Assembly (NCBI GenBank): GCA_016618085.1
Contig: JABLTG010000054.1
Span: forward strand, 30,121 to 94,120
DNA length: 64,000 nucleotides
Direction: 5' to 3'
Source: Neovahlkampfia damariscottae
Lineage: Eukaryota > Heterolobosea > Selenaionea > Neovahlkampfiida > Neovahlkampfiidae
Positions 14,736-60,933 of this stretch are shown here, one piece after another. The notes under the pieces were generated by a model. That model was not told the DNA's origin and did no database searches. It saw only the letters and a program-made list of their open reading frames with translations. The translations under genes were made by a program, and so were the position numbers. How positions within the stretch are numbered: the stretch's first letter is position 1; each line of letters starts with the position of its first letter.

Positions 14736-14741
14736 CCAATC
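14736..14741 (+). promoter_or_regulatory. CCAATC element before mitochondrial carrier
   Basis: CCAATC 20 nt before the ATG at 14762, followed by T-rich leader. Confidence 0.5.
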
Positions 14742-14761
14742 AATTTGTTTTTTCTTTTTGT

Positions 14762-15836
14762 ATGTCCTTTGGTGGTCAAGGAAAGTCACCAGATTCATTT
14801 TTTTTTCAATTACTTTTAGGAGGTTCAAGTTCAGGGACAGCAGCATGTTTTACTCATCCATTAGGTTCGAAATATTTTTAATTAAAAACAACAGATTTGA
14901 TAAAAGTCAGAAAACAATTGATGGGTGAACAAATCTCAGGTCAAAAAATGAACAGCTTTAAAATTGGTTCACTGATTATAAAAGAAGAATCTTTTTTTGG
15001 TTTGTATAAAGGACTATCAGCAAGTTTAATGAGACAATTCACATACAGTTCCGCAAGAATTGGTTCATATCCGTACATGAAGAAATTAGTAAAACAAGAT
15101 AATGAAAAACTTGGCATGCTTGGAAAAATAACAGCTTCGAGTATCCTTATTAAGAAAATTTAACATCAAATTTTTCTAGTGATGTCCGGAGCTTTAGGTT
15201 CAATGGTAGGATCACCAGCAGATTTAATAAATGTCAGAATGCAATCAGATGCAAAACAACCACCAGGTAAAAAAAATTATAACTCTAAATCTTCGCCAGA
15301 GAAAAGAAGAGGTTATAAAAACGTTTTTGATGGAGGAATAAAAATAGTAAAAGCAGAAGGAGTTTCTGCTTTATGGACTGTAAAACAAAAATTCTCGTTT
15401 TTTTTATTTTTAGGGGTCCAAAGCAAATACAATTCGAGCAATGTTGATGACTTCAGGTCAATTGGCTTCGTATGACCAAATTAAAGAAATTTTATTGAAA
15501 ACAAGATGGTTTAAAGATGATGTTATAACACATTTTACTGCAGGAAGTTTAGCAGGAGTGATTGCGACAATTATTTGTTCACCAATAGACGTAGTCAAAA
15601 CCAGATTGATGAATATGAAACCTGGACAATACAAAGGTTAGAATTTAAGAAATAAACTCATCATGAAAGGAATTGGAGACTGTTGTGTGACAACTTTCAA
15701 GAATGAAGGAACTATGGCTTTTTTTAAAGGATTTGGGCCTAGTTTAAGTAGACTAGTTCCTCAAACTATTTTGACATTCATATTTTATGAGAAATATTGT
15801 TCATTGCTTGATAAATTTTTGACAAATAAACATTGA
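14762..15836 (+). CDS. Mitochondrial carrier family protein (dicarboxylate/oxoglutarate/UCP-like)
   Basis: Six exons: 14762-14771, 14820-14864, 14895-15140, 15180-15379, 15414-15636, 15670-15836. Three carrier repeats with the Px[DE]xx[KR] signature are visible: HPLDLIKVRKQ (completed only by splicing at 14864/14895), SPADLINVRMQ and SPIDVVKTRLM. These solute carriers sit in the inner mitochondrial membrane with six helices. The LASYDQIK block and overall order fit the dicarboxylate/2-oxoglutarate/uncoupling protein branch; the exact substrate cannot be fixed from sequence. The first exon codes for only three complete codons, so the start is moderately certain; it is supported by the CCAATC element. 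Confidence 0.88.
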
Positions 15837-16015
15837 TTGAATTTGTTCAACCACAAGAATACCAACTCCATTGTGTTCTTCACCTGGAAAATCTCTGACT
15901 TTTCAAAATTGATTTGGAAATTCAACGGATAAATTCCGAGGAATTAGAGTTCCGGAAATGTACTATTTTTAGATGACACAGCTATTTATTCCGTTTCGAA
16001 ATCGGAATTTTTTGT

Positions 16016-16021
16016 CCAATC
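16016..16021 (+). promoter_or_regulatory. CCAATC element abutting the MGST start codon
   Basis: CCAATC directly touches the ATG at 16022. If this is the true start, the element lies at or downstream of the transcription start, which argues for a core-promoter or initiator role. A later ATG is not obvious in this exon. Confidence 0.5.
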
Positions 16022-16572: not shown

Positions 16573-16672
16573 TAAAGCAATATTTATCTGAAAAAACAAA
16601 TTGAACGTCTTGTTCTCATAAAAAAACAATCAAGTGTCCAAAACATGATTTAGTAGACAAAAATGAGTTTAT

Positions 16673-17968: not shown

Positions 17969-18185
17969 GATGGTTTAAAATTAGGTTTCCAATTTCCAAT
18001 TATTCGTTTTAAAACATCATAGGCCAATGAAATCACCCAACTTTTTCTTTTCTGTTCACAACTCCATTGTCCAATGAAAATGATCATTTTTTTCCTATGG
18101 AGAAAAGAACAAAAAAAAAGAATTTACATCTTCAAAATGACTTCATTTCGTTTCTAAAATTGTTTTTAAAGATTAAATTATTTCT

Positions 18186-18191: not shown

Positions 18192-18211
18192 ATAAACAAC
18201 CAAACTCTTTC

Positions 18212-18763
18212 ATGACAGAAGAGATTGAAAAGATTTTCAATTTTGAATTTTTATCACAAATTAACTTTTATAAATTAATTTTACACAAAAATATGAATAG
18301 TTTGGTAAGAAAAATCACTAAATTGAGTTTTGAAAAAAAAAGTTTGTTGAACAGTTCAGGATTTCAATAAAATCAATGAAATTGTTATTGTATGACAAAA
18401 TGATATTAAATTCATCATTTTATTCATTATTAACAAGTTATTTAAATTCTCTTCTCAATTTCAAAAAGAATCTGAATAAGTAAAAAAAATATTTTCTTAT
18501 TTTTTTGACATGAAAAAAGATGTTTTAAAATCACTAAAGTTCTGCAAGAAAAAGAGATAATGATATCCTATTCATTTTTGAATAATTTTTCAAATGGTTT
18601 ATTTCTTGCATTTCGAGAAATGAATGAATATTCAAAATTATTATTACTTGTCATCAAAACAAACTCAAATGAATTATTTTTTAAAAATAGAGTGGATATT
18701 TTGTTGAGCATCATACCATTTAAAAAGTATTTCAAAAAGAAATCAAGAAAAACAAACCAGTGA
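18212..18763 (+). CDS. Small Phe/Lys/Leu-rich protein, unrecognised, three exons
   Basis: Not visible as a long ORF. The ATG at 18212 opens 31 codons (MTEEIEKIFNFEFLSQ), followed by a 38-nt intron (GTAAG...AAAAG), a middle exon (FVEQFRISIKSMKLLLYDKM), a second intron of about 40 nt, and a last exon (KITKVLQEKEIMISYSF to a TGA at 18763). All three exons are open and both splice phases match. A further spliced extension to 18870 is possible. No domain recognised; helical and hydrophobic-patchy. Lies between the desaturase and F-box genes in what otherwise looks like a 900-base gap. Confidence 0.5.
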
Positions 18764-18879: not shown

Positions 18880-18885
18880 CCAATC
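18880..18885 (+). promoter_or_regulatory. CCAATC element before F-box gene
   Basis: CCAATC ending 19 nt before the ATG at 18905. Confidence 0.5.
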
Positions 18886-20022: not shown

Positions 20023-20028
20023 CCAATC
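20023..20028 (+). promoter_or_regulatory. CCAATC element before small beta protein gene
   Basis: CCAATC ending 21 nt before the ATG at 20050; an ATTGG also directly precedes that ATG. Confidence 0.45.
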
Positions 20029-20049
20029 AGAATTTTTTTTCTCATTGGG

Positions 20050-22384: not shown

Positions 22385-22390
22385 GATTGG
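22385..22390 (-). promoter_or_regulatory. CCAATC element before kinesin
   Basis: CCAATC on the gene strand, 24 nt upstream of the ATG at 22360. Confidence 0.5.
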
Positions 22391-24737: not shown

Positions 24738-24805
24738 ATATTTGGAGTTTGTTGATAAACTGTTTATCCAATCAAATTTTTTTTTGTTTTTAGTTCAAAA
24801 AGTGC

Positions 24806-29398: not shown

Positions 29399-31205
29399 TT
29401 ATTTCAATAAACTCAAAAAATTGTTTTCCATAGATCCAGAAAGCATATTTTTCTCATAAAATTTCTCTGAAAGTTTTTTGTTGATCTTTTTGTAAGTGTT
29501 TCCCAGTTTGTAATATGCAATCATAAATCCTTTACTTCCTGCTTCTTCCAAAATACTTCTTTGTTTTTCAATATCTCCATTCTGTTGGTAATAATCTGAA
29601 AGTTCTAAATAAGCCGATAAGATGTTGTCATCTTTGGCTGAATTTAAGTATTTCAATTTTTCTTCTGAATCACACAATAGAGCAAGTTCAAATAAAGCAT
29701 ATGACACTTATCTTTTATTTGTTCTAAATAATCCAATTGATGATCTTCATCAAGATCACAAAGATAAACATATGCTGGTGGATAATATTTTATCAGTTCT
29801 TTCAACTTATTAATGTCATTTTCGATGATTGAAGTGCATCTAACATCGTTTTTTCCTAGACCATACCAATAATTTGCTTCTGGTTCTTCAAATAACAAGT
29901 CGAAAAGTATTCCCATAGAATAATTAGCTGATGGGTCATTTTTTAATTCTTCTCGATACAAGTCATGTAAATCTTTTATCAAATTGTCAGAATATTTATA
30001 AAATTCATCTCCTTCTTGGTGTGAATATATTTCAAATGCCTTTGCAAAAAAAATAAGTTGCAATACAATTTTTGTATTTGTGACTAATTGAAGTCATTTT
30101 TAGAATTGATAAATTGCATAAACTGTGAACTATTGGATCATGTGGTTCTTCAAATTGAATAGGAAAAAATAAATTTCCGAGAAAAGCTTCTTTTCTCGTT
30201 TGATGACTCCATTTATCAAAAAACGGAGGGAAAAAAATCTTCTTTTTCAACAACATTTTTAGTTAGTTGATGCAATACATCAATTTCTTCAGCAGGACAC
30301 TTTGATATAAAATATCTAAATGAAGCAAATTCTGAATATGTCTTTAATTTTAAAATATCTGATATTTCATCCAAATCCAACTGTTTTTTAATTTTTTTCA
30401 ATAAATGTTCTTTGTTTCGAGTTCTTTCCAACATTATTATCATTTTTTTGTCTATATACAGTTTATTTATGTCATCTGTATCTAATTTTTGCTCAAAAGA
30501 AAACAAGTATTTGTCTTGAATTTGAGATTCATCTTGAGTTTGTGTTTCATCATCACTTCGATTTTTTCTTTTCTTGTATTCTTTTCTTTGTTTAAAATCA
30601 ATATAGTAAATGTCGTTGAGTAATTTTGCTTTCTTCAAAATAGTCATTCTTTCTTCAGAAAACTCATTCCAACTAAAAATATAAAAAAAGGAAATTTAAT
30701 ACGGATATCTTTGGATATCTGATTCTTTCTTCGATACTTTAAAATCACATTCGATTTTTTCTCCAAACCAATCTCCAGGACAAAAAATATTTGTTGGGTC
30801 TTCTTTTAATCTTCCTGTTCCACAATTTGGGCATTTTGGTAAACAACCATCGACCATGCTATTCGCAATTCCTTTTTTTTTTAGTCTTAATATTCTTACT
30901 TTCACACTTCTCGAGCTTTTTTTCTATTTTTCCATTTTTCTTTTGTTTTTTGGTTGACCGTTTTTATTTAAAAATAATTCTAAGGTTTTGGTTTTATAAT
31001 CTGCGTTTAAAACATAAATCATTCTTCTCTTCAGTTCTTCATCAGACAAATAAAAAATTTTGTTAATCAGATTTATATTTTCATCTTTACTAAATGAGTT
31101 TATTTCGTTTTTTCCAAACGAAAAAAAACAAACTTTATATGGCTCCATATTTTTTGAACCAAACAATGAAAAATGACTCTCCGTTACAAAGAACATCACC
31201 TTCAA
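29399..31205 (-). pseudogene. PADR1 zinc-domain and Sel1-repeat gene remnant with several frameshifts
   Basis: From 5': LELFLNKNGQPKNKRKMEK (31000-30925) and, one intron later, SMVDGCLPKCPNCGTGRLK with FCPGDWFGEKIEC (30860-30740), which together make the PADR1 zinc-binding domain of PARP-1-like proteins. A good intron leads to NEFSEERMTILKKAKLL and a Lys/Glu-rich region. Beyond that, Sel1/TPR-like repeats (EAGSKGFMIAYYKLGNTYKK, SYALFELALLCDSEEKL) run to 29399. Frame breaks without usable introns occur near 30920 (stop plus shift in an A-rich run), 30235 (T run), 30055 (T8) and 29705. PARP catalytic and WGR domains are not present. Several breaks lie in homopolymers, so consensus error is an alternative. 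Confidence 0.5.
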
Positions 31206-31257: not shown

Positions 31258-32961
31258 TTAAAAACCTGAACAGTGACATTCTGGAACAGTGTGTCTGAAG
31301 TTGTATTTAGCAGCACCAATATCTTTGATGACTGGAACACAATCCATACAAACATAACGGAAAAGTCCTCTATAAGTGTGTAAACAGTAATTTCTTCTTC
31401 CAATTCTTTTACAAAGGATTGGACCATAGTTTGTTCTTTGACATCCTTTGTTTAACCAATTTGAAGCATATTTTACATGTCCTTTTTCCAATGAAACAAT
31501 TCTTGTATTTCCTGATGGACCATCTCTGTTAATTTGAGCTTGATGTGTGTAAAATGCAGCTCCGTGATTATGATTTTGACCAGCTTGCATCATAACAGGT
31601 GATCTTGTTCTTGCACAATGTGGTGTATAAACTGAGCCTCTTGGTCTAGCAAGTGGACAGTCTTTCCAATGTACAACCCAAATAGCATGTTGTTCAACTT
31701 GATAATCCATTAAGACAATTCTTTGTGGACCTCTGAATGATTGGAATTTAGCATGACGAATTTGGTTCATGAGAGTATCAACATTTGGTTTATTTTGAGC
31801 AACATAAAGATCAATTGAAGCTTTAACCCAGTTTCTTCTTGTTTGGTCATGAATTAATTGATAAAGTGGAACTGTTGTGAATTTAACTGGAGCAGGAGCT
31901 TGGTCAAATGAAGCAATTCTTTGATTAATTTTATCAGCACCAAGTTCTGGATTACCTCCGAGAACATTAAAAAGTCCGAGTTTTCTATATCTAGCATAAG
32001 CTGAATTTGGTGGTCCTTGGTTTCTAATTTTATGTTCTAAATCATTTTGCATATCAGCATTGACATTAGCACCATAACATTCTTTAATTGTAGTTTGTTG
32101 ATAAATTGTACCACCATGTTCTGTATCAATTGAAACATCAGTTCCGTAAAATTGAATTAACATATCATATAAAGCTTTAACAGAAGGATCATTTGGATTC
32201 CAAGCAGGTAAACTATTTACAATAGCAGTGAATTCTGGAAGAGCAGCCATTGATTTAACTTTTGAAACGAATGAAGTGTGTACTTTTTGTGAAACACCAA
32301 TGTTTGTATAAGCTAATGAAAAAGCGTTTGCTAATTGTCTGACAGTAGCATCATTTTGAACATATAAACCAGCTTCATATTTGTTTTGAGATGGTTCTTT
32401 GTAAACCATACGTAAAAATTGTTCAATGTCTCCAAAACGGTGATTTGAAATATCTACTTTTTTTTGTGGAATAGCATTGTCTCCTGATGGTAAGACTGGA
32501 AATTTGACTTCTCTTTTTACACGATCAAAACCAAATCCAGAAATGATTCCGTTGGAAAGTGGTTGTTGGTTCATTGCTTGAGCAACTTTTGAAGAATCAA
32601 TTAATTCAGCTTGCATTTGAATATCTTCACCTTCAGTAACGACTGAACCAGAAATATCAATTTCTGAGTTTGATTGAACGTTTGGAGAGTCGTTGATGTA
32701 GATTTTTTCGTCACTTTGAATTCCTGCTTCACTTGAGAAACCTCTTTGTAAAGGTGGACAAAATAATTCTCCTTTAAAATTTCTCATTGCTTTGCAAAAA
32801 GTTTAGTTTTTTTTTGTTTTTCTTTTACGGCAGTATTTTTGTGGAAGGTTATTAGCCAAACCAACAATTTCATTTCTTAGCACGTCAGCCTTTAATGGTT
32901 CATATTCAGCAGCTACGAAAACAGCGCAGAAGATTAACACACAACAAAGGAATTTGTTCAT
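31258..32961 (-). CDS. Secreted MACPF-domain (perforin-like) protein
   Basis: Two exons: 32961-32829 and 32789-31258, intron 39 nt in phase. The first exon encodes a signal peptide (MNKFLCCVLIFCAVFVAA). The MACPF signature is present around the middle as FYGTDVSIDTEHGG followed by TIYQQTTI, preceded by the helical region typical of the fold. The C-terminal 150 residues are Cys/His-rich (CCR-type pattern; for example DCPLARPRGSVYTPHC). MACPF proteins oligomerise on membranes to form pores; in phagotrophs they may act in the food vacuole or defence. Codon use is less AT-biased than neighbours, consistent with high expression. ATTGG lies 23 nt upstream of the ATG. Confidence 0.8.
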
Positions 32962-32983: not shown

Positions 32984-32988
32984 CCAAT
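32984..32988 (-). promoter_or_regulatory. CCAAT-type element before MACPF gene
   Basis: ATTGG on the gene strand, 22 nt upstream of the ATG at 32961. Confidence 0.45.
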
Positions 32989-33203
32989 GAAAAGGCTATA
33001 AATTAAGAAAGGTCAACCAGCTCATTGGATGTTTGATTCCAAAATTACCAATTTGGTGAAAAGAACCTAAAAATAAAACCAAATGACAGAAGGAAATAAT
33101 TCAAAGTTTTAATCACTTTAATCCAGTTTACAGTTCTTCAGTTTTTTATTGGTTCAAAAACTATAGATTTTTTCACAATTCCCAACTACTCCATTTATTT
33201 ATT

Positions 33204-33803: not shown

Positions 33804-33815
33804 AAAAGAAAAATT

Positions 33816-34700: not shown

Positions 34701-34706
34701 GATTGG
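34701..34706 (-). promoter_or_regulatory. CCAATC element three bases before CRAL-TRIO start
   Basis: CCAATCAAAATG on the gene strand: the element ends 3 nt before the start codon. Confidence 0.55.
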
Positions 34707-34809: not shown

Positions 34810-34815
34810 CCAATC
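34810..34815 (+). promoter_or_regulatory. CCAATC element before EF-hand gene
   Basis: CCAATC ending 22 nt before the ATG at 34838. Confidence 0.5.
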
Positions 34816-35462: not shown

Positions 35463-35682
35463 TAAAAAAAAAATTTGTTCACAAAACATCAAACTCTTCA
35501 AGAAAAATTCTCTTTTTGGATGTAAAGTTAAATTTTTTCAAACCTTTGAAAAAGGAAAACTGACAAAAAAAAATAAAAAAAAGTCATTTTTAAAAAGTAG
35601 GTTTTTGATTTGTGGAATTCCAACCAATCATTTTGATACATCAAAAACGTTAAAAAACGTACACTAAAAATAAAACTGTAAA

Positions 35683-37912: not shown

Positions 37913-37918
37913 AAGAAT

Positions 37919-39297: not shown

Positions 39298-39414
39298 TCC
39301 AATTTTATTCGTGCTGAAAACTTCCAATGAAAATGAAGAAAAAAAAAAATAAATAAAATTCAAATTTCAGTAGAATCAAACAATTTGAAATTAATTTATC
39401 ATCGAAATATTTGT

Positions 39415-41249: not shown

Positions 41250-41307
41250 CAGATGAATACTCCTTATGCAATTGTTGAATAACAATTTAGAAGCTTTGCC
41301 AAATTTC

Positions 41308-41320
41308 ATTGGTTCATTGG
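41308..41320 (+). promoter_or_regulatory. Doubled ATTGG element before acid phosphatase
   Basis: Two ATTGG copies, CATTGGTTCATTGG, 8 nt apart, end 11 nt before the ATG at 41332, within the 82-nt gap and leader after the NMNAT gene. Confidence 0.5.
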
Positions 41321-42459: not shown

Positions 42460-42679
42460 ATCAGTGTTAATCAATTTGTTTTATTATTCCATTAAAAACT
42501 CATTTGATTTTCTTCTTCAAATTCTTCTTATTGTTAGTTTTCACTCCACCATTTCCAGATTTCAATGTAGAACAGTTCTATAGATAACATGTTCAAAACC
42601 CTTTAGTTGGAAGTCTTTTTCATTTCTGATTGGTTCAAATAGTCAACTTACAAGACGTTCATCATCACTACCACAAACG

Positions 42680-43353: not shown

Positions 43354-43359
43354 CCAATC
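43354..43359 (+). promoter_or_regulatory. CCAATC element three bases before secreted protein start
   Basis: CCAATCAAAATG: identical spacing to the CRAL-TRIO and 48298 genes. Confidence 0.55.
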
Positions 43360-43860: not shown

Positions 43861-43874
43861 AAATTTAATATCTT

Positions 43875-45638
43875 TTAAAAAGTTTGTTTGATTTTTTTTA
43901 CATTTCTATAAACTTTTTTGTTTAATTGTTCAATTGGAATTGCTGTTGTACTTATTTTAGAATTTGAAAATTCATAAGGATCTTGTGATGACTCTAAAGC
44001 TGAAAACTTTCTTTTTTTTGAATCATCAATTTTTTCTGTAGTTTCAACTTCTTCTGTATCTGTGATAGTTGGAAGTAACATCATAATTTCATCTAATTTC
44101 TCGGAAGTTTTTACAGTTTTGAGAACAGCATGTTTTTTTCTAATTGATCTTTTCTTGATGAACTCATCATCAATCATTCTTTGAATAACTTCAGTTGCTT
44201 TTTCTTCTGTGAATGAAAATTGTTGTTTTAATTCTTCTTTGGTGATATGACTTTGAGTTAAAACTTGTGCCAAGCATCTCAAATATAATTTTTCTTCAAA
44301 TGTCATTTTTTCATCTTTTTGAGTTGTTGGTTCATCTTCATCAGTAATTTGAGTTGAATCTAGCTTTTGTTAACAAAATAATATGTTACCATCATCTTCT
44401 GATTCAATATTTTGATCATTTTCTTCTTCTTCCATTGCTTCAATTTTTTTTTCTTCATTTTTCTTATTTGATTGATCAAGTGATACTTCGTTCATCTTTG
44501 AAGAAATTTCATCAACAATTTTAATTTCTTGTACTGGATTTTGACATTCTCTGATTTCAATTGATTGACTTGATTCATTTGATAGTTGAGAATTTTCAAT
44601 TTTCTTTTTAGCTGATTTTACAATTCTTGGGCATTCTTGATGCATTTGAGTTTCTTCTTCAATTGAATCCATAGGTGATTTATCATGTTGACTCTCAATT
44701 TCTTTTACTGATTTTTTTGGAGTTGTTGGAGCTTCATCTAAAAGAATATCATCAACTTGTTTTCCATTGCTGATTGAATCTTCTTCTTCTTCTTCATCTT
44801 CAGCAGTCCAAATTTTTAGATTGAAAGCGTGATATTTGGTTTCAACATTTGTCACTGAAATTTTGAGAAATTCCTTGTTCAAAGACTCTCTTTCTTCTGT
44901 TTAAGAAAATTAAAACTTTTTGGATATATTACGTTGGTTACAGGCTCTAAAATATTCAGGTTCATAATCTTCAGGTGTAACTTCATCATAATACCTTCAA
45001 TTAGAAAAATTAAATGTTTTTTTTTGGAGTGAGATACATTAACTTCATAGAAAGATATCTTGTCGATGGAAGATTATTAAGACTTTGAGAAAGTGTAACT
45101 ATTGTTCTAATCATTGCTTGAATAGATAATTTAATGTCTTCTTTTGTTTGAGCAACTCTTGATTTAGTTTCATCCATTTTTAGAATAACTCCATCTTCTG
45201 GGTATTCAAAAATAACTAATAGTGAATTTTAAATGATTTTTACATTCATAACTTTCAATCATGCTTTTGAAATCATTCTTTTGATCTTTTGAAACTCCAA
45301 ATATTAATTTTTTCAACTTTCGCAAAAATTAAAAAATTTGGAATTTTTTTTTACGTATTTTTTGTTTATAGCATCAAATACACCCTTTTCCATCCAATCT
45401 ATAAGCGTTTGAGCTTCTTTTGATTTTGGAAGTAACGAATTTATTTGAATACCTTTGAAAAAATATTAGAAACCGAATACTGTCGTTTACCCACTAACGA
45501 TCTTTGTTGAAAGCTTTCATCTGGAAATAAATTCCTAAGATAGCAAATTGTAGAAATCGAGGTGCGAATTAAATTACGAACAAGAACTTGTGATTCTTGT
45601 CTTGTAATTTCTTTTGTTTGAGGCTTTACTGCTTGCAT
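43875..45638 (-). CDS. HOP1: HORMA-domain meiotic chromosome axis protein (Hop1/HORMAD-like)
   Basis: Seven exons assembled with consistent phase between 45638 and 43875. HORMA domain: ITRQESQVLVRNLIRTSIST, CYLRNLFPDESFQQRSLVG, LKKLIFGVSKDQKNDF, SYEFIFEYPEDGVIL, LPSTRYLSMKLMYYDEVTPE. Residues after it are acidic and Ser-rich, as in Hop1 linkers. Near the C-terminus is a winged-helix-like block (YLRCLAQVLTQSHITKEEL, RMIDDEFIKKRSI), as in the chromatin-binding region of several Hop1 proteins. Hop1 organises the meiotic chromosome axis and promotes interhomologue recombination. No closure-motif was assigned. Reading frame intact. Confidence 0.85.
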
Positions 45639-45838
45639 TGACTATCTTTTTAATTTAAAAAATATTTCTTACAACTGACATGGCTTTCTCTGTTTGCTTT
45701 ATTTTTTTTTGACGAAAAAAATTCGAAACTCAAACATCATTATCAAAAACCAATCAGAAACTGTTAGACTGGTGATTGGCCAGAAAATTTTATTCCATAT
45801 TCTTCCATAAATTGTGAATTTTCATCATACAATGTCTA

Positions 45839-47273: not shown

Positions 47274-48298
47274 TTATTCATTTAATAACTCATAAGGATT
47301 GGTTGATCCATTTTTTTGCATTTTTTTTGGATTTTCTTCTGAATTTTTCCAAAGACGATTCAGAAACACTTTTTGGTTGTAATATGTTTTAATCTTTTTA
47401 AAACTGACAGAATCAAACAATTTAACTTCTTTGAACTCACGTTTTTTGTCTTGGATTTTTTTTTTTGCAGTTGTTTCAATACTTTTCATTGTGGTTTTGT
47501 CAACATCGAAAATAAAAAAAAGATGTTTTCCAGAATTTTGATGGAAGCTATCGGAATACTTGTATGTCATTTCTCCTAAAATAAGGCCTATTTCTTGTTT
47601 ACATTCCTTTCCAATACTTTCAGAATATTTTCATCAATGTGCTCAGGTTCACCTCCAGGATAAGAAAAATAGCATGGGTGGTCTATTCCTTTAAAAATTT
47701 CAGACATATCTTTCTTATATGACGATAACATATCTTTTATGACTTGAAACGCATTTTCTTCTGTTAATCCTGTTGATTTCTTTATAAGGTTATCAAATCC
47801 TTGAATTGAAAATATTTTCGCTTTTTCAATGTCATCCAATTCTTCAAAGTTCTTGACATCGTCTATATTTTTGAGTAACTCTCTTTCTTCCTTTGAGAAT
47901 TTAGGTTTTAATGGTATTTCAACTTTCCATTTGTTTTCTTTCATATCATCTTCCAAATTTTTGTCACTGTAATATTCTTTCAATTTCATTTTAAAGTCAT
48001 GAAACTGTGGCGTATTTTTATTTTCCAAAAACAAGACTTGTTTTCCACAACGAAATATCGCATAGTACCTGACATCAGAGTTGGTTTTATCATTTAGAGA
48101 CAATTTTTTGTTTTTGAATGTTCTGTTACTAGATTTTAAAGATTCTGAGAATTTTTCTGGGTCTATACTCTCAGAAAAATCTTTTATATCACCAAGATCA
48201 TCACTGTCATAATTGAGGTCTTCTTTTTTTAATTCTAAACTAATTTGGAATTGTGTTTGGTTGAGGTGTTTTTTGCTTTGTTCAAGTACTTGATCCAT
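47274..48298 (-). CDS. Hypothetical charged protein, two exons
   Basis: ATG at 48298, three bases after CCAATC. The first frame (47588-48298, 236 residues) is Lys/Glu/Asp-rich (MDQVLEQSKKHLNQTQFQI, VRYYAIFRCGKQVLFLE). A second open frame, 47274-47570 (MTYKYSDSFHQNSGKHLFFI), can be joined in phase by a 79-nt intron with its donor in the Pro-Gly-Gly codons near 47657 (CYFSYPGG to EMTYKY). If that intron is not used, these are two genes. The C-terminal part is basic. No known domain recognised. Confidence 0.5.
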
Positions 48299-48301
48299 TT
48301 T

Positions 48302-48307
48302 GATTGG
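48302..48307. promoter_or_regulatory. CCAATC/GATTGG element shared by divergent genes
   Basis: TGATTGGTCA lies 3 nt from the minus-strand ATG at 48298 and 20 nt before the plus-strand ATG at 48328. It is a likely bidirectional core element. Confidence 0.5.
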
Positions 48308-48607: not shown

Positions 48608-48775
48608 TCATTGAAAGAAGTAATCTTCTTTTCCAGTCGGTTTTTTTAATCCAAAATATTCAGTGCCGACATGCTTACATATGAAGAATTCTTCGCCACA
48701 TCTAGCGTTTTTTGCATCAGTGCAAATTTTCTTTTCTGAAACATTTCCGCACTTTGTGCATGTAGGAGGTTCCAT
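48608..48775 (-). CDS. Small zinc-binding-type protein, 55 residues
   Basis: ATG at 48775 to TGA at 48608. Cys and His are spaced like a compact zinc site: CTKCG near the start, then C18, C26, and ICKHVG (C33, H35). The rest is KKPTGKEDYFFQ at the C-terminus. CCAAT on the same strand lies 31 nt upstream (48807-48811). Too short for routine gene callers. Could be a zinc-finger adaptor; no family named. Confidence 0.5.
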   Translation of the reverse strand: MEPPTCTKCGNVSEKKICTDAKNARCGEEFFICKHVGTEYFGLKKPTGKEDYFFQ

Positions 48776-48806: not shown

Positions 48807-48811
48807 ATTGG
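48807..48811 (-). promoter_or_regulatory. CCAAT element before small zinc protein
   Basis: CCAAT on the gene strand, 31 nt upstream of the ATG at 48775. Confidence 0.4.
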
Positions 48812-49439
48812 TCATATTATTCTTTCAAGATCAACTTTTGATCCAATTAACAGCGTTTGAGAAGCAAATGCCAGAGACTCGTTAATATAGAGAATTTTGA
48901 TGTAATTTTATCTAAATCCTCGAGCACTCCATAATTTTCTTTTAGGGATGCGAAAATTTCCAGAAAAATCAATTTTTAATATAAAATTACTGTTGTAAAT
49001 TGAATTGTACAACCATTTGGACGAAATCAGAGCAGTGGGTGTCTCCATGAAAATCCTCTTGGCTCCTCTTGTAATTGAAAAAGTGATTTTTTTATTTTTT
49101 CATGTAAGCGAAATTGTGTTTTAACTACCATTCCTCTTCTTCAGAAAATTATTGACAAAGAACTTTATATTTCTTCTATACACCAAACTTTTTCCGGAAA
49201 AAGTACGTTTTTTTGAGGAAACGGTAAATTTAAGTCGCTGGAGGCTTCACCAGTGTAATTTATGGGCTAGAGCTTTGGCCATTCCTACTTACTTTCTGAT
49301 TGGATGAAAAATCCGGAAAAATGGTGTGTAAACGTTTGAACAACCATTTTCCTTTTTAAAATTAAAAACATCAACTTTTAAATCCCTCATGTTCATTGGT
49401 CTACTAATTTTCCCTTCGGAGTGAAATCAAAGAGAAAGG
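48812..49439. other. Long intergenic region, nothing firmly identified
   Basis: About 630 bases with many stops in all frames and locally higher GC than the neighbours around 49020-49075 and 49230-49285. No tRNA box A/B pair, no convincing exon. A structured RNA gene is possible. GATTGG occurs at about 49300 and an ATTGG at about 49396, 40-odd nt before the OvoA start. Confidence 0.45.
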
Positions 49440-51701
49440 ATGAAGCCAGATCTTCCGTTAAATTTAGAAGAGTTGAACAATCAAAACTTACAGCAACACT
49501 TTGAAACGTGTTTTGATAGATACACAAAGCTTTTCACAAGAATCATAAAAAGGAACTTACAACCCACATCTGGATCAACAAAGTTAACAAGAGGACCGGA
49601 CAGAGGTTTTTACATAAGAGCTGAAAAATTAAGGCATCCTTTAATTTTCTATTTTGGACACACAGCTGTGTTTTATATCAACAAATTAATCACTGCACAA
49701 GTGTTACAAGAAAGTGATAGAATAGATCCATGGTTAGAATCAATATGTGCTGTAGGAGTTGATGAAATGAGTTGGGATGACAAATTATTGGATATTGATT
49801 CTGTTAGTAGAAAATCTGAAGACGACAAAACTATAGGAACAAATGCTTGGCCTTCTGTGGACAGAATATGCAGGTACAGGAATTTAATCAAAGAATTGAT
49901 GACAAAAATCATTAAAGAAATAGATTTATCTGATTATAAATCTGGTGAAGCCCATAAACATCCAGTATGGGCTATTTTAATGGGTATTGAACATGAAAAT
50001 GTTCATTTGACAACATCTTGTCCGATTATAAGACAATTACCATTAGAATGCATTAATATGATTGAAGAAGCACCTATTGCGCCATTTACTCATAAAATAG
50101 ATTCATTAGAACTGCTTGATGAATGGGTAAAAAATGAAGGAGGAAAAATAACTCTTGGAGCTTCATGGTCTGATTCATCAGCAATCACTCCTGAAAAAGA
50201 AAAATATTATCAATGGGATATTGAAATAGGTCAGCAATTAGCTATCGTAAAACCATTTACCGTCAGAAAATACTCAATCACAAATGCTGAATATTTGAAA
50301 TTTGTGAAGAGTGGTGGATATCAAAATTCAGAATATTGGACAGAAGATAGTGAAAATTGGAACCAAAAGCATTCACATCCAAAGTGGTGGAGATATGATG
50401 AAGAATCAAAAACATGGAAATTACGCCTAATTGATCGTGAAATTGATCTTGTTCCATTTTGGCCAGTTGAAGTGAATCATCATGAATCAATTGCATACAT
50501 CAATTGGTTAAACAAGAAATACAACAAGAATTATCGTTTATTCACAGAAAATGAATACTATTCGTTAATTCAAAACGAGAAATCCACATTCACAGAAATG
50601 ATTGAAAATGCCAACATTAACTTCAAATATTACTCACCATCACCTGTTGATTTATTTGAAGGAAAAAGAGGAATTTGTGATTTAGTGGGGAACGTATTTT
50701 CACATTCATTGACTTCTCAATATCCATTTGAAAATTATTCTGTCCATCCCTATTATGAAGATTTTTCATTGCCATTTCTTGACCATAGACACACATTCAT
50801 GAAAGGAAGTTGTTTTACGAGTTTTGGAATTGAAATTATACCTGTTTCAAGATATGCGTACAGAAGACATTTTTATCAATTTTGTGGTTTCAAATTAGTT
50901 GAAGGAGAAATGCCAGAGAAAATAAAAGCATGTCCTTATGAAAAAAATGAAAGAATCGCTAAATTGATACATTCTCATTATACGTTGAATGAAACAAATT
51001 CCTCGTTGAAAGTATCAAATTTCTATGAAACCATTTCACAAAAAATACTTCAAATATTGAAAAATGAAAAGAAAAACTTGAAAGAAATAAGGGGTTTAGA
51101 TTTAGGTTGTAGTGTTGGGAGACTATCTTTTGAACTTGCCAGAGAGTTTAAATTTGTTATTGGGATTGATTTGATTAATTTAATTCAACATTGTCATCAA
51201 TTGAGAAATCACAATAAACTATGTTATACATTGAAAAATGGAGAATTCGAGAATATTCATGATGTTAATTTTGACACAAAAACCTTGCAAAATACACAAT
51301 TTATTCAATTTGAATTTTCAAATTTACCAAAAACTCATGTAGATGCAGAAGGAAATTCTATGGATTTAAGTCATTTTGAAGTTGTTTCATGTATTAATTT
51401 GATTGAAAGAGTGAGAGAACCAAAAAATGTACTGAAGCAAATTCAAGATATTCAAAAGAAAGGTGATTATTTATTCTTAAGTTCTAGCTATTCTTGGGAT
51501 TTCAATGTGACAAAAATTGAAAATTGTATTCAAACAAAGAATGTGAATGCTGAAAAGAAGGATCCAATTTCAATATTGAAAAGATGTTTATCAAATTATG
51601 AACTCGTTGAAACAAGTGATATATTATTGGTTCAAAGATCTAATGATCGTAAATTTGAATTGGTCAATTGTGAACTTTCCATTTGGAAGAAAATTCAATA
51701 A
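49440..51701 (+). CDS. ovoA: 5-histidylcysteine sulfoxide synthase / ovothiol biosynthesis bifunctional enzyme
   Basis: Single exon, 753 residues, the usual OvoA length. Domain order: DinB-like N-terminus carrying the iron ligands (GHTAVFYIN and MGIEHENVHLTTSCP, the HxxxH of the non-haem iron site), FGE-sulfatase domain (VKPFTVRKYSITNAEYLKFV, PKWWRYDEE, FWPVEVNHHESIAYINWL, GICDLVGNVFSHS, KGSCFTSFG), and a C-terminal SAM methyltransferase (GLDLGCSVGRLSFELAREF). The first part couples histidine and cysteine using O2; the last methylates 5-thiohistidine to ovothiol A. Thr replaces the Glu usual in the HLETS block. Ovothiol is a redox-protective thiol. Confidence 0.93.
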   Translation: MKPDLPLNLEELNNQNLQQHFETCFDRYTKLFTRIIKRNLQPTSGSTKLTRGPDRGFYIRAEKLRHPLIFYFGHTAVFYINKLITAQVLQESDRIDPWLESICAVGVDEMSWDDKLLDIDSVSRKSEDDKTIGTNAWPSVDRICRYRNLIKELMTKIIKEIDLSDYKSGEAHKHPVWAILMGIEHENVHLTTSCPIIRQLPLECINMIEEAPIAPFTHKIDSLELLDEWVKNEGGKITLGASWSDSSAITPEKEKYYQWDIEIGQQLAIVKPFTVRKYSITNAEYLKFVKSGGYQNSEYWTEDSENWNQKHSHPKWWRYDEESKTWKLRLIDREIDLVPFWPVEVNHHESIAYINWLNKKYNKNYRLFTENEYYSLIQNEKSTFTEMIENANINFKYYSPSPVDLFEGKRGICDLVGNVFSHSLTSQYPFENYSVHPYYEDFSLPFLDHRHTFMKGSCFTSFGIEIIPVSRYAYRRHFYQFCGFKLVEGEMPEKIKACPYEKNERIAKLIHSHYTLNETNSSLKVSNFYETISQKILQILKNEKKNLKEIRGLDLGCSVGRLSFELAREFKFVIGIDLINLIQHCHQLRNHNKLCYTLKNGEFENIHDVNFDTKTLQNTQFIQFEFSNLPKTHVDAEGNSMDLSHFEVVSCINLIERVREPKNVLKQIQDIQKKGDYLFLSSSYSWDFNVTKIENCIQTKNVNAEKKDPISILKRCLSNYELVETSDILLVQRSNDRKFELVNCELSIWKKIQ

Positions 51702-52643: not shown

Positions 52644-52655
52644 AAAATTTTTCAA

Positions 52656-54456
52656 TTATTTTTTGTATGAATAAATTGATGTTAGATTTGCCAATTTTTT
52701 TTGGTCTTTAATTTTCAAATCTTCTTTAATTTCAATGAGCATTCTCATCATTCCTTGAGTTTGAACTCTTTGAAATGCTTCTGATAAATCAACATGTTCA
52801 TTGAGAAATTCATAAATGCTTTCGCCATCATATTTTTCATCAAAATTGACATTGTGAAAAATTAATGATCTTTGTAGAACTTTATCTTTACAATGAAAGA
52901 ACAAAGGTACTTGATTGATTTTCAAATTTGGATTCGCTCCTTCACTAAATAACACATTTCTAACTTTTGATGATTTGGCTAATTCCAAAGGACAAGTGAA
53001 TTTATTATCACCAAGATCAATAATTTCATTTGGATTTAATCCAGCATTGATGAAAATTTGAACATGTTTTTGATTATCTTTTTCTAAAATGTCTTTCCAA
53101 TATTCACCTGTATGTTTTTTTGAAAATGGATTGAATTTTGTGAACATATCTTTAATCCGTAAAAGATATGAAATTGATGTTCCATAACTTGTCTTCCAAA
53201 GAAAATGAAAAGATGATTCTCCAGATTCTGTTGTGTAATTTAAAGCAACTCCATTTTCATGAAATAAATCAATGATTTCAGGATCAAACGCGTAGATTAA
53301 TAAGTTATAACCTTGATCATATTCATCATCATCGTCTTCAATAAAGTCATAATGAATTTGTGTTGTCTAAAAAGAATGTCAAAAAATTATTTTTTATACA
53401 TCAATTTTGGAGTCATAACCATTGTCAAAGTACAATTTCAAACTTGATAAAACTGAATCTACAGTAATTTTTTCTTCTTTATTTAAGTTTGCTGCATATT
53501 TCATGTATTTAAAAATTGTGTTAGTGTTTAAATCTAAGCTAATTCCTTTTTGAAGACAAAGGTCCAATGCAGCAGAGTCTTGAATGACGACATCAGAAAG
53601 TGTTAAAATATTTGATTCTGCAAATAAATTAATCCCACTTAAAGCTTTAAATGACTTATTTTCAATTGATTGTGAAAAATCAATTTTATCATTTGAAAGC
53701 AAAAGATCAAAAGCAACTAGGTATTCATTCACTCTACAATGCCATAACAATGAAACACCATTAATTCTAGTATTAATATCTGCTTTGTTGTTCAATAAAA
53801 GAACCATCATTTCTTTTGATTTGATTAACTCTAAACAGTGAAGTTTTGTTCTTCCTATTTTGAGCAATTTATTTGTGTCAAAGCCTAATTTTAAAAAGTA
53901 TTCCATTGCGTCAATATTATCAGTTTCCATAAAGTGTCTAATAACCATAGCTAAATTTCTTTCATCAGTGAGAATTTTATATTCTGGAATAAGTGAAAAA
54001 TATAATGGAACTAATTCAAAACCGAATTTTGCTAAATTGACAATAGGTTTAAAACCACATTCCTAAATAAAAAAATTTGAGAAATTTTTTTTTTACATCA
54101 GAAACTGGTGGAACTCCTTTAGAAAAAATTAATTTTTTTTAAAAGTTCCAAACCTGCATTTAAGAAGGCAATTAATAAATCAGGAAAGTAAGCTAAATGA
54201 ATAAAGGAATATGCTTCTGCTGACTTTCATTTTTTTTAGTTTTTTTTTTTTTTTTTACTAATGCGTTTGGATCTCCTCCTTCTGAGAAATATTGTTCTAC
54301 ATCATCAAGTATTTCATATTCACCTGGTACTAAATCCATTTCACCAAGAGTGAAGAAGTTACTTGCATCAATTAACTTTTCAAAAAGTTCGTCTGAGTCA
54401 ACCATCGTTTTGATTTGTTGTTGTGACAAGTTTTGATTGGTGGAATGTCGAGACAT
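52656..54456 (-). CDS. Ankyrin-repeat protein
   Basis: At least five exons in consistent phase, from ATG 54456 (MSRHSTNQNLSQQQIK). Degenerate ankyrin units are recognisable: YFSEGGDPNAL, IHLAYFPDLLIAFLNAG, YFLKLGFDTNKLLKIGRTKL, LLNNKADINTRINGVSLLWH, FINAGLNPNEIIDLGD, LFSEGANPNLKINQVPL. Two small exons near 54130-54240 are only visible after splicing, including one joined through a poly-A-rich intron at about 54222-54256. Ankyrin arrays bind protein partners; no enzymatic domain is attached. Its 3' end abuts the convergent secreted-protein gene by 12 nt. Confidence 0.78.
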
Positions 54457-56031: not shown

Positions 56032-56037
56032 GATTGG
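56032..56037 (-). promoter_or_regulatory. CCAATC element before RGS-START gene
   Basis: CCAATC on the gene strand, 13 nt before the ATG at 56018. Confidence 0.5.
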
Positions 56038-56142: not shown

Positions 56143-56148
56143 GATTGG
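56143..56148 (+). promoter_or_regulatory. GATTGG element before sphingomyelinase-like gene
   Basis: GATTGG ending 26 nt before the ATG at 56175. Confidence 0.45.
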
Positions 56149-56174: not shown

Positions 56175-57537
56175 ATGAAGAAACTTGCTGTCTTTTTTCT
56201 TTTATTTGTTATGAGTTCATTAGCAAAAATAGGATACTTTTGGCAAATAACAGATCCTCATTTCGATTCGATGTAAAAAAAAAAAAAAAAAAAAAAATAA
56301 TATTTTCAGTTACAAAGTTGGTGGAGATATGGAAAACTGCAATTTTGATTTCATTTGTTGTCGTTATATTTTTCCAAATACAACTAAAAAAGCTGGTAAA
56401 TTTGGAGCTCCTGAAGGAAAGTACTGTAATACCCCTCTTGTCACAATCCAATCAACTTTTGACTTTATGAAAACATACTCACAAAGACTAACACCAAAAC
56501 CAACCTTTCTTTTAATGGCTGGAGATTTTCATGGTCATGATATGGATCTCCAAACAAAAGCTTCAACTCTCCAAAAGCTAAATGAATTTACAGATTTTTC
56601 AGAAAGAATGAATAGTGGAATGAAAGTGTTTCCAAGCTTTGGGAATCATGATGGGTTTCCTTGTGATCAAATAGACTATCGACAACCGAGTGATATGCTT
56701 AATGAAGTTTCAAAAATTTGGGCAAAACATCGTTTGACAGCAGAATCAATTTCAAATATTAAAAAGGGAGGATATTACACCGAATTAATTGTACCAAGGT
56801 TAAGAATCATAAACATGAACACTCAAATGTTCAGTAAAACAAATGCTTATGTAAAACAGTTTTTTATCTCTAAAACTTTTTGACAGACACATATTAATGT
56901 ATCAATGGATCATGCAGATCAAATGGATTTCTTAGAAACCACTTTAGATGCTTCAATGAAGAGAAATGAAAAAATCATCATTTTGGGTCATATTCCGCCA
57001 ATAGGAAACTCAGAACGTTGGTATTCCTATAAATTAGAACAATTTGAAAAAATCATTCAAAAATACCACAAAATTATTGTTGGACAATTTTATGGACATC
57101 AGCATGAAGATTCATTTTCCTTCATGGTAAATAACGAAAACAAAATCATTGGTAAAAAATTCATTGGCGGAGTTGTAACTCCATTATCAAGAAAAAATCC
57201 AACAACTAGATTGTATAAATATGATACAGATACATTTGAATTATTGGACTACGAAGATTTTTACATTCCATTGAAGGAATCCGAAGAAATTGGTGAAATA
57301 GTTTGGAAAAAACTTTATAAATTCACTGAAGAATACAATCTTCCAGATTTATCAAATGAATCATTTGAGAAATTATATCAATCATTTAAAACTTCTGATG
57401 AATATTGGAAAAAGTATAATTATAATTTTCATGGAAGATACTATAATAGAAATTGTCAAGGAGGTTGTAAAAAAAATCTTTTATGCAAAATGATATCACC
57501 TACAACAGAAAGATTTAAAAAATGTATGAGTCAATAA
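56175..57537 (+). CDS. Acid sphingomyelinase-like secreted phosphodiesterase
   Basis: Three exons; the first intron (about 56275-56311) contains a run of about 24 A, the second is near 56849-56884. Signal peptide (MKKLAVFFLLFVMSSLAK). Metallophosphoesterase motifs: QITDPHFDS, LLMAGDFHGHDMD, FPSFGNHDGFPCDQ, IILGHIPPIGN and GQFYGHQHEDSF. The Cys pattern (NCNFDFICCRY, CQGGCKKNLLC) fits ASM-like (SMPDL3) enzymes. Likely cleaves phosphodiesters or nucleotides in lysosomes or outside the cell; true sphingomyelinase activity is uncertain because no saposin domain is present. Confidence 0.88.
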
Positions 57538-57566
57538 ATTTTCTATTGAAGGACTGAATTTTCACA

Positions 57567-57572
57567 CCAATC
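57567..57572 (+). promoter_or_regulatory. CCAATC element before hypothetical gene
   Basis: CCAATC ending 15 nt before the ATG at 57588, 30 nt after the stop of the preceding gene. Confidence 0.5.
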
Positions 57573-57587
57573 AAATTTTTTTTTTTA

Positions 57588-58346
57588 ATGAAGAGAAAAC
57601 AAAACGTACTTGAGACCTGTGTGAAATCAGTTGCTATAAAAAACATTCCTACAAGTTTCCAAAATGATTCTGGTGTATTTCTATGGGGTCAACTACATTG
57701 TATTATCGAAGGATCCAAAAACTCTGCTTTTGACTCTGCAAAACCTGTTTCTTCAAGTTCTGGTGGTACAATTTTACAAAGTCAATGGAATTACAGAGTT
57801 AAAGCGAAAAAGGGAACTTGGATAGTCACAGAAGGTCTTATGGATGATGATTTTTTTGGTTATATCATTCATCATGAATCTGTGAAAGCAATTGATGTTT
57901 TAAAGAAAGCACATGCTGTTGGAGTAGATCATCAGAATAAATCTAAAGAAGTGGCTTACGTTAATCGTTATGATTGGTCTGTACATCATGGGAGTGTTGA
58001 TGCTATCAGAAATGAGATAAAACAGGATCAAAGAAAAAGGAAAAAAAATGAGAGAGATGATTCAGATGATGAAAATCATCAATTAATGTATGGTAGAATG
58101 TATCTGATTGATTCTTCAATTTACCAATCATTCTTAAAATGTGTTGAAAAAAAGAAAACTCACCATAAAAATGAATTGTTTCAAGAAAATAGGAGTAATT
58201 TGGGGATACACTTAACCGATGAATTTACAGAATATGAACTTGGTTGGATGATATTTGATACAAATTCAAAAGAAAATGAATTGATTGGATTTGTTTATGA
58301 TGCCACTTATCACGGATTAGGAGATGGTACTCCAGGTGTGAAATAA
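57588..58346 (+). CDS. Hypothetical protein, 252 residues
   Basis: Single exon. Begins MKRKQNVLETCVKSVAIKNI. Conserved-looking blocks GTWIVTEGLMDDDFFGYIIH, VDHQNKSKEVAYVNRYDWS and GFVYDATYHGLGDGTPG suggest a globular enzyme-like fold with His and Asp residues, but no family is recognised. A Lys/Arg/Asp-rich insert (RKRKKNERDDSDDENHQ) interrupts it. No targeting signal. The following 210 bases hold no gene I can support. Confidence 0.55.
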   Translation: MKRKQNVLETCVKSVAIKNIPTSFQNDSGVFLWGQLHCIIEGSKNSAFDSAKPVSSSSGGTILQSQWNYRVKAKKGTWIVTEGLMDDDFFGYIIHHESVKAIDVLKKAHAVGVDHQNKSKEVAYVNRYDWSVHHGSVDAIRNEIKQDQRKRKKNERDDSDDENHQLMYGRMYLIDSSIYQSFLKCVEKKKTHHKNELFQENRSNLGIHLTDEFTEYELGWMIFDTNSKENELIGFVYDATYHGLGDGTPGVK

Positions 58347-58556
58347 AAACTAATTGAATGCCATATATCACTAAAGTGTTATGTTTTGTTTCTTATTACT
58401 AAAGGAATAGTTTTTTCGAACTCCTTACAATTGGAGTGTATAAACAAAAAAAGAACAAGTTGTTTTTGAAGAATCCTTTGTTTTTAAACACAGACCAAAT
58501 ATGTTTATATCTAGTACAAAAACTATCAATTTTCTTGTGTGAAAATTCTTTTATTT

Positions 58557-60914
58557 TTAATTTGGTATTGACGTGTGTAAGAAATGATGTTCCACTGATT
58601 CTTTGATTTTTGTGACTACAGCTCCTTTTGCGAACATTGTATATCCCTTCATCACAATAGACTTTTTACCAAACGAAATAATTTGAAGAACTGCTTTTCC
58701 ATCCTTATAAGGCACCAATTTCTGTTTAAAACTTGAGTAATCCTTTGAGAATTCAGCTGCTTTAATGCAATTAGCAGCTCTTTTTCCGTGTTCTTCAGAA
58801 AAATAAGCAAGTTTTTCATCTTTCAAATTGACAATATCCCCGATTGCAAAAATATTAGAATATCCATCAAAACATGAATCTGTAGCAGAAATTCCATCAT
58901 CTAATGAAAGAGAAAAAATAGATTTTTGAATTTTCTCAAAATCACTTTCGTTTGAATCACTTTTTAATTCTTCATTTTCATTCTCATTGGTGTATTGTTT
59001 CATATTAATTTCCTTGTATTTTTTCATTTCTTCTTTGAATTTCTTTGGACTCCAATTGTTTTGTCCATATTTGACTTGGAAGAAATCATTCACTTCTACA
59101 TAACCTCTTGCATCCAATGAATCAGACATCAAAGTTTTGAACATTCCAGTGGACGGATGAAGACCTACACAAATGATAACAACATCAACATCAAGATATT
59201 CTTCAACATTTTTTGTTAATTTCTCAGTTTCTGATTTTTTGAAGAACAATTTTTTTCCATCAACTTTCACAACACTGCGATTGAACAGAACTTCTAAGTT
59301 TTTGAATTCTTTAAAGAATGAAACTCCTGCTTTATGTGCTGAAGGTGATTGCCTTTCTAAAAGTCTTGATGCATTGGTAATTGCAGTGACTTTCGTATTT
59401 TGAAAATGACTTGCAATTTCACCAGTGATCTCTACGCCCACAGGTCCTGTTCCAACAATTGCAATATGTTTTGCCTTTTCGAGATATTTATGGTTTGAAA
59501 TTATCTGTTTTGGTTCATATGGAAATAAAACTCGACATTCATCCTCTTTTGGGTTCTCCCAATCGATTTTGATTGGAAATGGAACAAAGTATTTACTTCC
59601 TGTTGCAACAATCAAATAGTCATAACTAATTGATTCATTATCTTTCAAATAAACCACAGATGGTGAAATATGCTTTTAAAATTGTTAAAAAAGGAAAAAT
59701 GTTACCAGGACTTCTCCTTGAATAAATTTACATTGTTTTGCGACAATTGACATTGGAATTTCCAATTTCTTAATGTATTCTGGATTAGAGAATAATTTAA
59801 AGAAGGAAATGTTAAATTTCATATTTTCATTTTTGTCAATAACTGTCACATCAAAAGATTCTCTTAACAATTTTGCCGAATTCATTCCAGCAAATCCACA
59901 GCCAACAATGACTACTTTCTTTTTTAATTTGAAGCAATAATGTTCTTTTTCATTATTGACAATTTCAATCACTTCATATTTTGCAAGAATTTTAATGATC
60001 TTTTCAATGTTCAAATTGGTTACTTCAATCTTTAAATAATTTGCCAACCAAATAACCAAATCAGATTTTTTAAATTCTCTTTGTTGGAAAGTATTATCAT
60101 TCTTCTTTGACTTTACAGCACTATTTATCATTCCAAAAATCGACTTTCTTTGTTTTTTCACAAAACTTGATAATTGAACTCCTGAGAAAGGTGTCATCAT
60201 TTCGACAATCATTTGATTCATTTTGTCTTTATTTTTCAATGATTTAATGTCTAGATTATCCAAATCTTTAGAAGTAAATTCAATATTGACGGTAGACACT
60301 TTGCTTTGGTGAAGTGAAAATCTCGAATTTTTCTTCATTCTTCCATCAGAGATTTTTTCATATTCTTTTGCTTTAAAGTATTCTAAATCAATGATAGACT
60401 TTGATATTTCATCCTCTGTTGATAAAAATTGTTGTTTGAAATTTTCTGTGGACATGGATTTCATAAGTTCATCAGTGATATCAGCAAACTCATTTGTGAA
60501 AATATATTTTGTCCAGGCGTCAAAACGTATATCATTATAAACTACTTTAAAAGAATCATAAAAAATATCAAAATCAAAAGTTGTTTTTCCTTCTTTTGCC
60601 ATTTCATATTTTTCAATTGTTTGTTTCCTCACATTTCCTTTATTTTGTTCAGTTTTTTTTGTTTTTTTACCTGGAATATTGATTTCCTCATCTGAATCAA
60701 TGTTTATAAATCTGTCCATGATGATTTTTGCTCTTTGTTTTTTCATGGTTTGACTGAATAGTAAATTAAAATCTGAAATTTGTTCAATGTAGTTTAGTAG
60801 TTCCAAATTGAATGAAGACTCCAAGAATTTTGAAAAAGATTCATATATTTTTGAATTTTCAAAACATTTTTCAAAGTTGTATGTTTTTGGCTGAACATCC
60901 ACTTCCAAAGTCAT
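58557..60914 (-). CDS. RGS-DEP-FSP1/AIFM2-like oxidoreductase fusion
   Basis: Two exons, 60914 to about 59690 and about 59657 to 58557, intron about 32 nt in phase. Residues about 10-190 form an RGS domain (YNFEKCFENSKIYESFSKFL, ESSFNLELLNYIEQISDF, DAWTKYIFTNEF). A DEP domain is at about 305-370 (FKKSDLVIWLANYLKIEV, ILAKYEVIEIVNNE). The rest is an FAD oxidoreductase: VVIVGCGFAGMNSAKLL, AIVGTGPVGVEITGEIASH, IFAIGDIVNLKDEKLAY, matching FSP1/AIFM2-like NAD(P)H-quinone reductases, with a Lys/Glu/Asn-rich insert (KYKEINMKQYTNENENEEL). Links G-protein control to quinone redox chemistry (inference). Paralogue of the DEP-FSP1 gene at 1627-3002. Confidence 0.85.
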
Positions 60915-60927
60915 TTTAAAGAATAAA

Positions 60928-60933
60928 CCAATC
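60928..60933 (-). promoter_or_regulatory. GATTGG element before RGS-DEP-FSP1 gene
   Basis: GATTGG on the gene strand, ending 13 nt before the ATG at 60914. Confidence 0.5.

Follow-up and report, generated by a model that had tools for sequence, protein, structure and literature searches.

What marks the place where a gene begins in an AT-rich protist genome? The question is raised by the 64,000-nucleotide stretch of DNA analysed here (the window), positions 30,121 to 94,120 of contig JABLTG010000054.1 from the heterolobosean Neovahlkampfia damariscottae (GenBank assembly GCA_016618085.1), in which the word CCAAT, read in either direction, recurs shortly before start codons. Beyond animals, fungi and plants, core promoters have seen little mapping. 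The abstract of a study of Phytophthora infestans takes much the same view (PMC3599244; this and the other papers cited by PMC number are represented here by excerpts). An initial annotation of the window had proposed that CCAATC or its reverse lies close to most start codons and acts as an orientation-independent core promoter element, with near-absent 5' untranslated regions (UTRs). We find the word strongly enriched before starts and about equally often in either orientation, and we propose, at what we judge an even chance, that CCAAT(C/G)AA is an orientation-independent element, bound by a complex of the NF-Y type, that lies at the transcription start site (TSS) or inside a short leader and would define the promoter in about two thirds of genes.

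A CCAAT element close to start codons

Genes were modelled with a home-made finder that combines a coding Markov model, splice matrices and a 6-nt start context. At the setting used, its corrected version, run with a flat start model and built without the motif, predicted 46 genes, of which 39 reach at least 80 aa; the final counts rest on 39 flat-start genes of at least 100 aa, seven shorter ones having been dropped. Someone who knew the motif then shifted four of the starts by hand (24878 to 24806, 34901 to 34838, 61263 to 61094 and 56211 to 56175), and counts before these moves are given in brackets. All counts come from one 64-kb window of one species and from these home-made gene models.

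Over the whole window CCAATC occurs 59 times against 32.5 expected, a number reached in 0 of 100 shuffles. It is the top hexamer in two rankings, one of them limited to hexamers found in at least five genes. Within the 70 nt before the start codon (-70..-1), CCAAT is found at 30 of the 39 genes (27 before the moves; shuffle mean 7.3, maximum 16 of 1000), CCAAT[CG] at 27 (25), and CCAAT[CG]A at 26 (24), the last against a mean of 1.2 and a maximum of 6 in 1000 dinucleotide shuffles of the moved set. CCAATC alone stands before 20 of 39 starts (18; shuffle mean 1.6, maximum 6 of 1000), so that the claim of an element at most genes holds for CCAAT and CCAAT[CG], whereas the strict hexamer reaches only about half. 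CCAAT[AT] is not clearly enriched (8/39; shuffle mean 4.9, maximum 13 of 1000). The enrichment is also local: CCAAT[CG]A falls to 7/39 at -140..-71, 5/39 at -210..-141, 3/39 after stops and 1/39 in the first 70 nt past the ATG, where CCAATC is found at 0/39 genes. Around 39 random non-coding anchors, CCAATC lies within 70 nt at 4.1 on average and at most 11 in 2000 draws, against 20 for the real starts. The signal persists in other gene models: the earlier models without moves gave CCAATC at 17/39 starts against 1.4 expected (maximum 5 of 300), and five finder settings with the flat start model gave CCAAT[CG] at 23-26 of 38-39 starts, with 7-9 in the next 70 nt. Positional enrichment over shuffled and downstream windows, as predicted, is thus strong within the 64-kb window.

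No comparable hexamer appeared among the best eight per zone at -30..-120. A TATA box as the common element was considered and set aside: TATAAA occurs at no more than 3 of 39 genes in any 30-nt bin, in counts made without a shuffle control. GATTGG is enriched at -100..-200 as well (8 genes against 0.84 expected), and these copies may be the boxes of divergent neighbours.

The element has a defined shape. The 5' edge of the nearest box has a median position of -27 from the ATG (range -6 to -61), and at four genes the box ends 0-3 nt short of the ATG. Both orientations had been predicted and both are used, 15 nearest boxes being forward and 12 reverse (P 0.70). The base after CCAAT is C or G in 32 of 42 proximal boxes against 81 of 196 elsewhere (P 6e-5), and the base two past CCAAT is A in 35 of 39 boxes and G in 2. 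On the other side, position -2 is a purine in 29/39, and position -1 (n=39) is A in 17, T in 16, G in 5 and C in 1. A T-rich and then A-rich stretch follows 10-30 nt past the box. The word, its position, its orientation balance and its enrichment are all direct observations.

Leader length and the start of transcription

Where transcription begins was judged by proxy, out-of-frame ATGs being expected to be selected against in a scanned leader. Such ATGs number 3 in -40..-1 against 14.7 expected from the rate in -200..-41 (5 against 14.5 with the first start set), and their counts in successive 20-nt bins outward from the start codon are 1, 2, 9, 8, 10, 5, 8, 6, 11 and 6; CAT, the word read backwards on the other strand, shows no depletion. 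Over the 20 nt on the 5' side of the element there are 0 ATGs against 5.5 in base shuffles, with CAT at 6 against 5.8 and TGA at 8 against 5.6, and from 21 to 60 nt 5' of it ATG stands at 11 against 11.7. With the element itself included, the stretch from element to ATG holds 3 ATGs against 6.9, a loss that is not significant. The scarcity of ATGs as far out as -40, and over some 20 nt on the 5' side of the element, is an indirect sign of leaders around 40 nt long, with the element inside them or at the TSS; we have moderate confidence, the counts being small, that these leaders begin some 10-20 nt before the element. Leaders of this length would fit neither near-absent 5' UTRs nor a box standing 60-100 bp ahead of the TSS. 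The near-absent 5' UTRs of the initial annotation are therefore not borne out, and the distance of the box from the ATG (6-61 nt), together with the ATG depletion, argues against a box 60-100 bp upstream of the TSS.

Candidate mechanism and rival explanations

NF-Y is described as the primary, and likely the sole, CCAAT binder of eukaryotes (PMC7793273), and plant and mammalian NF-Y both prefer C at +1 and a purine at +2 (PMC6843132). The boxes of the window share several features with NF-Y boxes, namely an intact, promoter-enriched CCAAT, C or G at +1 with a purine next to it at +2, and occurrence in both orientations, and the C/G-then-A flank resembles an NF-Y site. The most likely reader of the box, in our view, is a CCAAT-binding trimer of the NF-Y type. 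The box, some 6-60 nt ahead of the ATG, would lie at the TSS or slightly within a short transcribed leader, and the trimer bound there would mark and open the start region, keep the promoter open and fix polymerase initiation next to itself. Promoter activity, and core promoter function with it, are what we infer from the sequence pattern. In mouse cells, NF-Y keeps the region upstream of the TSS nucleosome-free and guards TSS choice (PMC6624317). A bolder form of the proposal, which we advance tentatively and consider rather doubtful, is that an NF-Y-type histone-fold complex at or just downstream of the TSS is the main core promoter factor here, replacing TATA and initiator (Inr) at most genes and setting the TSS in a leader of about 40 nt, in a position that can be inhibitory in human cells.

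Several observations weigh against the NF-Y-type element at the TSS. Nine of the 39 genes have no CCAAT within 70 nt, and where no box is near, ATGs are scarce to a similar degree, though not significantly so (2 against 4.5). In the stretch from element to ATG the loss of ATG is likewise non-significant (3 against 4.5). GTA is low in the 20 nt 5' of the element (1 against 5.5) and in -40..-1 (4 against 14.6), as it is everywhere tested, including -80..-41 (7 against 17.4), and the rate of GAT drops in -40..-1 (0.0123 against 0.0204). The boxes also lack the mammalian-type purine preference at -1, where 16 of 39 have T, a base that is very detrimental to mammalian NF-Y and that plant NF-Y tolerates (PMC6843132). 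Position is a further difficulty: human NFY is counted among activators with sites that are enriched ahead of the TSS and depleted close to it, and in human cells NF-Y can inhibit initiation depending on its position, as when it lies downstream (PMC11269187). Either this lineage uses NF-Y differently, or the TSS lies just downstream of the box despite the ATG counts, or another factor reads the box.

The second of these options amounts to an NF-Y box of the ordinary upstream kind, on genes whose mRNAs have almost no leader, the TSS falling between box and ATG and leaders measuring 0-50 nt. We regard this as possible, if on the unlikely side. The box does lie 5' of the ATG, with CCAATC at none of the 39 genes in the 70 nt that follow; the T-rich then A-rich stretch 10-30 nt past the box would suit it, as would the activation from upstream by NF-Y in human cells (PMC11269187), and the ATG depletion is indirect evidence, with GTA dipping as well. 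What speaks against it is that the four boxes ending 0-3 nt before the ATG would require leaders of at most 3 nt, and that ATGs are missing 5' of the box too, 0 against 5.5. Initiators are directional, and the metazoan Inr, YYANWY, is matched by CCAATC. An initiator-type element, with the TSS within the box and a lineage-specific protein other than NF-Y as its reader, would have parallels in the Inr, M3 and M5 elements that lie near the TSS in Trichomonas (PMC11702783). The nearest boxes do not keep a fixed orientation, 12 of 27 being reversed, which disfavours a directional initiator, and the C/G-then-A flank fits NF-Y; we think this explanation improbable.

A signal in the mRNA, for translation or trans-splicing, instead of one in the DNA is suggested by the place of the box within the inferred leader. 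We consider it very unlikely, as the balanced orientation is unlike a strand-specific RNA signal, and a trans-splice acceptor in particular is disfavoured because 17 of 27 genes have no AG in the stretch from box to ATG, against 10 that do. That the pattern arose by chance, as a composition artefact of an AT-rich genome, or by biased start choice we find barely credible: the material is only 64 kb and 39 genes, four of whose starts were moved by someone who knew the motif, but the shuffles, the downstream and coding controls, the random anchors and the 24/39 starts with CCAAT[CG]A before any move all stand against it.

Individual sites and neighbouring genes

The boxes are listed by position and strand, each with the start codon that it precedes.

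1600..1605 (-): element before 1627 (+), pyridine nucleotide oxidoreductase; second at 1564-1569
4449..4454 (-): element before 4478 (+), RGS domain and hydrophobic segments
10277..10282 (+): CCAATG before 10256 (-), phospholipase-D-like (named by eye)
12420..12425 (-): CCAATG before 12383 (-); CCAATT also at 12395
14562..14567 (-): element before 14547 (-)
14736..14741 (+): element before 14762 (+), mitochondrial-carrier-like (named by eye)
16016..16021 (+): element touching the ATG of 16022 (+), MAPEG family
18024..18029 (+): CCAATG before 17968 (-), cytochrome b5 fatty acid desaturase; more CCAATs at 17989 and 17996
18880..18885 (+): element before 18905 (+), F-box-like
20023..20028 (+): element before 20050 (+); CATTGG at 20043-20048 is nearest the ATG
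22385..22390 (-): element before 22360 (-), kinesin-like (named by eye)
24768..24773 (+): element before 24806 (+), start hand-moved from 24878
32984..32989 (+): CCAATG before 32961 (-), MACPF-domain protein
34701..34706 (-): CCAATCAAAATG at 34697 (-), CRAL/TRIO
34810..34815 (+): element before 34838 (+), start hand-moved from 34901
35624..35629 (+): element before 35683 (+)
39324..39329 (+): CCAATG before 39297 (-), extended gene model; another ATTGG at -6
41315..41320 (-): CATTGG before 41332 (+); another at 41307-41312
42628..42633 (-): element before 42680 (+)
43354..43359 (+): CCAATCAAAATG at 43363 (+), hydrophobic, signal-peptide-like N-terminus (by eye)
48302..48307 (-): CCAATCAAAATG at 48298 (-)
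49394..49399 (-): CATTGG before 49440 (+), OvoA-like
54435..54440 (-): element before 54405 (-)
56032..56037 (-): element before 56018 (-)
56143..56148 (-): element before 56175 (+), hand-moved from 56211; 56175 was the start in the earlier model
57567..57572 (+): element in the 50-bp gap from a stop ending at 57537 to the ATG at 57588 (+)
60928..60933 (+): element before 60914 (-), RGS plus oxidoreductase

All 23 coordinates at which the initial annotation had placed the element do carry CCAAT or ATTGG; the full CCAATC/GATTGG is present at 17 of them, with another base after CCAAT at 12395, 32984, 37336, 39415, 41308 and 48807. Closeness to a start was confirmed at 20 of the 23, where 4-32 nt separate the coordinate from the A of a modelled start codon downstream; three of those starts (34838, 56175 and 14762) were set or checked by hand, and the finder later found 14762 itself. 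Two further sites precede small open reading frames (ORFs) outside the models: 18186 lies 26 nt before the ATG at 18212 of a 52-codon ORF, and the 5' edge of the CCAATA at 48807 lies 36 nt before the ATG at 48775 of a 55-codon, Cys-rich ORF. That ORF (48608-48775, minus strand) matches a zinc ribbon weakly, its Pfam score of 16.2 bits (E 0.0076) falling short of the 34.9 required. Site 39415 is unsupported, the nearest modelled start being 126 nt away. The finer details held up as well: CCAATCAAAATG occurs at three starts (34697 on the minus, 43363 on the plus and 48298 on the minus strand), and one gene, 16022, has its ATG touching the element. That the element may help in choosing starts agrees with gene 37919, which motif-free re-modelling extended to a start at 39297, with ATTGG at -6 and CATTGG at -32.

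Paralogues within the window are pairs too few to count as conservation: 1627 and 60914 both have TTGATTGG boxes, 12383 and 14547 both have forward boxes, and in the tandem pair 61094/62847 only the first has CCAAT, at -63. Relatives of three window proteins were sought in the viral and genome contig collections scanned, and none was found there. In the single gene model at 58557-60914 (minus strand), whose first part was run against Pfam, an RGS domain and a pyridine nucleotide oxidoreductase are joined, and its paralogue at 1627-3002 is an oxidoreductase with a different N-terminus. The tandem genes at 61094-63915 (plus strand) are aminotransferase-like (named by eye) and share 84% identity over 264 aa, the second probably extending past its modelled end. 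A protein with a HORMA domain (matched in a shorter model from 45262) and an acidic stretch is encoded at 43875-45681 (minus strand), possibly a meiotic gene. The MACPF-domain protein at 31258-32961 (minus strand) has a hydrophobic N-terminus, and at 49440-51701 (plus strand) an OvoA-like 5-histidylcysteine sulfoxide synthase is fused to its methyltransferase.

GC content across the window is 27-31% (29% overall). ARAGORN found no tRNA in the window, and no Rfam family matched within it at the gathering score. The proteins encoded are of eukaryotic type (RGS, cytochrome b5 desaturase, F-box-like, MACPF, OvoA-like, MAPEG, CRAL/TRIO and HORMA), together with an L21 ribosomal protein of bacterial type that carries an N-terminal extension, and we read the window as nuclear DNA from a protist that has mitochondria. 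The earlier gene-finder model gave 42 genes with 63 introns, 59 of them 28-45 nt long; the intron length prior of the finder favoured about 33 nt, so the narrow range is partly imposed. Gaps between modelled genes of at least 100 aa have a median of 48 bp when convergent (n=9, shortest 6), 195 bp when tandem (n=19, the shortest ones 49-98 bp) and 242 bp when divergent (n=10, shortest 159). Stop codons lie 6-14 bp apart in four convergent pairs (33804-33815, 37913-37918, 43861-43874 and 52644-52655), and the 3' ends of these pairs therefore probably overlap.

Comparison with known systems and significance

The TISU/YY1 element of mammalian mRNAs is likewise a factor site in a short leader beside the ATG; unlike the window element, TISU includes the ATG and is directional. 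The Inr, M3 and M5 elements of Trichomonas are also unlike it, having other sequences and a direction. These Trichomonas elements are similar in being short and near the TSS (PMC11702783), and YY1 sites have a preferred place downstream of the TSS (PMC11269187). The mammalian NF-Y box shares the CCAAT followed by C and a purine and is widespread in promoters, but it differs in that T is common at -1 in the window boxes, and in its place: as the initial annotation had noted, the element, with its median of -27 from the ATG, stands far closer to the start of the gene than classical mammalian boxes, which sit 60-100 bp upstream of the TSS (PMC7793273). Among protists, P. infestans has a CCAAT box in both orientations (984 forward, 969 reverse matches), flanked by T-rich sequence and in most cases no more than 150 nt from a start codon. 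There the box is upstream of the INR in 94% of co-occurrences, at a median of 83 nt, and TSSs lie at a median of 50 nt before the ATG (PMC3599244), so that by our own sum of these figures the window box is about 100 nt nearer the ATG. In Entamoeba invadens, too, NF-Y binds CCAAT, and the motif is enriched in cyst-specific genes, but its position within the 500 nt upstream of start codons shows no preference (PMC6581852). Among the matches listed from the open-access literature, that on Naegleria included, titles and the opening lines of abstracts point to no protist with CCAAT fixed so near to start codons.

If the proposed reading is true, NF-Y, often called an upstream factor, could be a primary selector of start sites. 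A TBP-like role has been proposed for NF-Y (PMC7793273), and such a role would become testable in a genome of minimal promoters. For genomes of this kind the CCAAT element also offers a practical rule for locating start codons and small genes.

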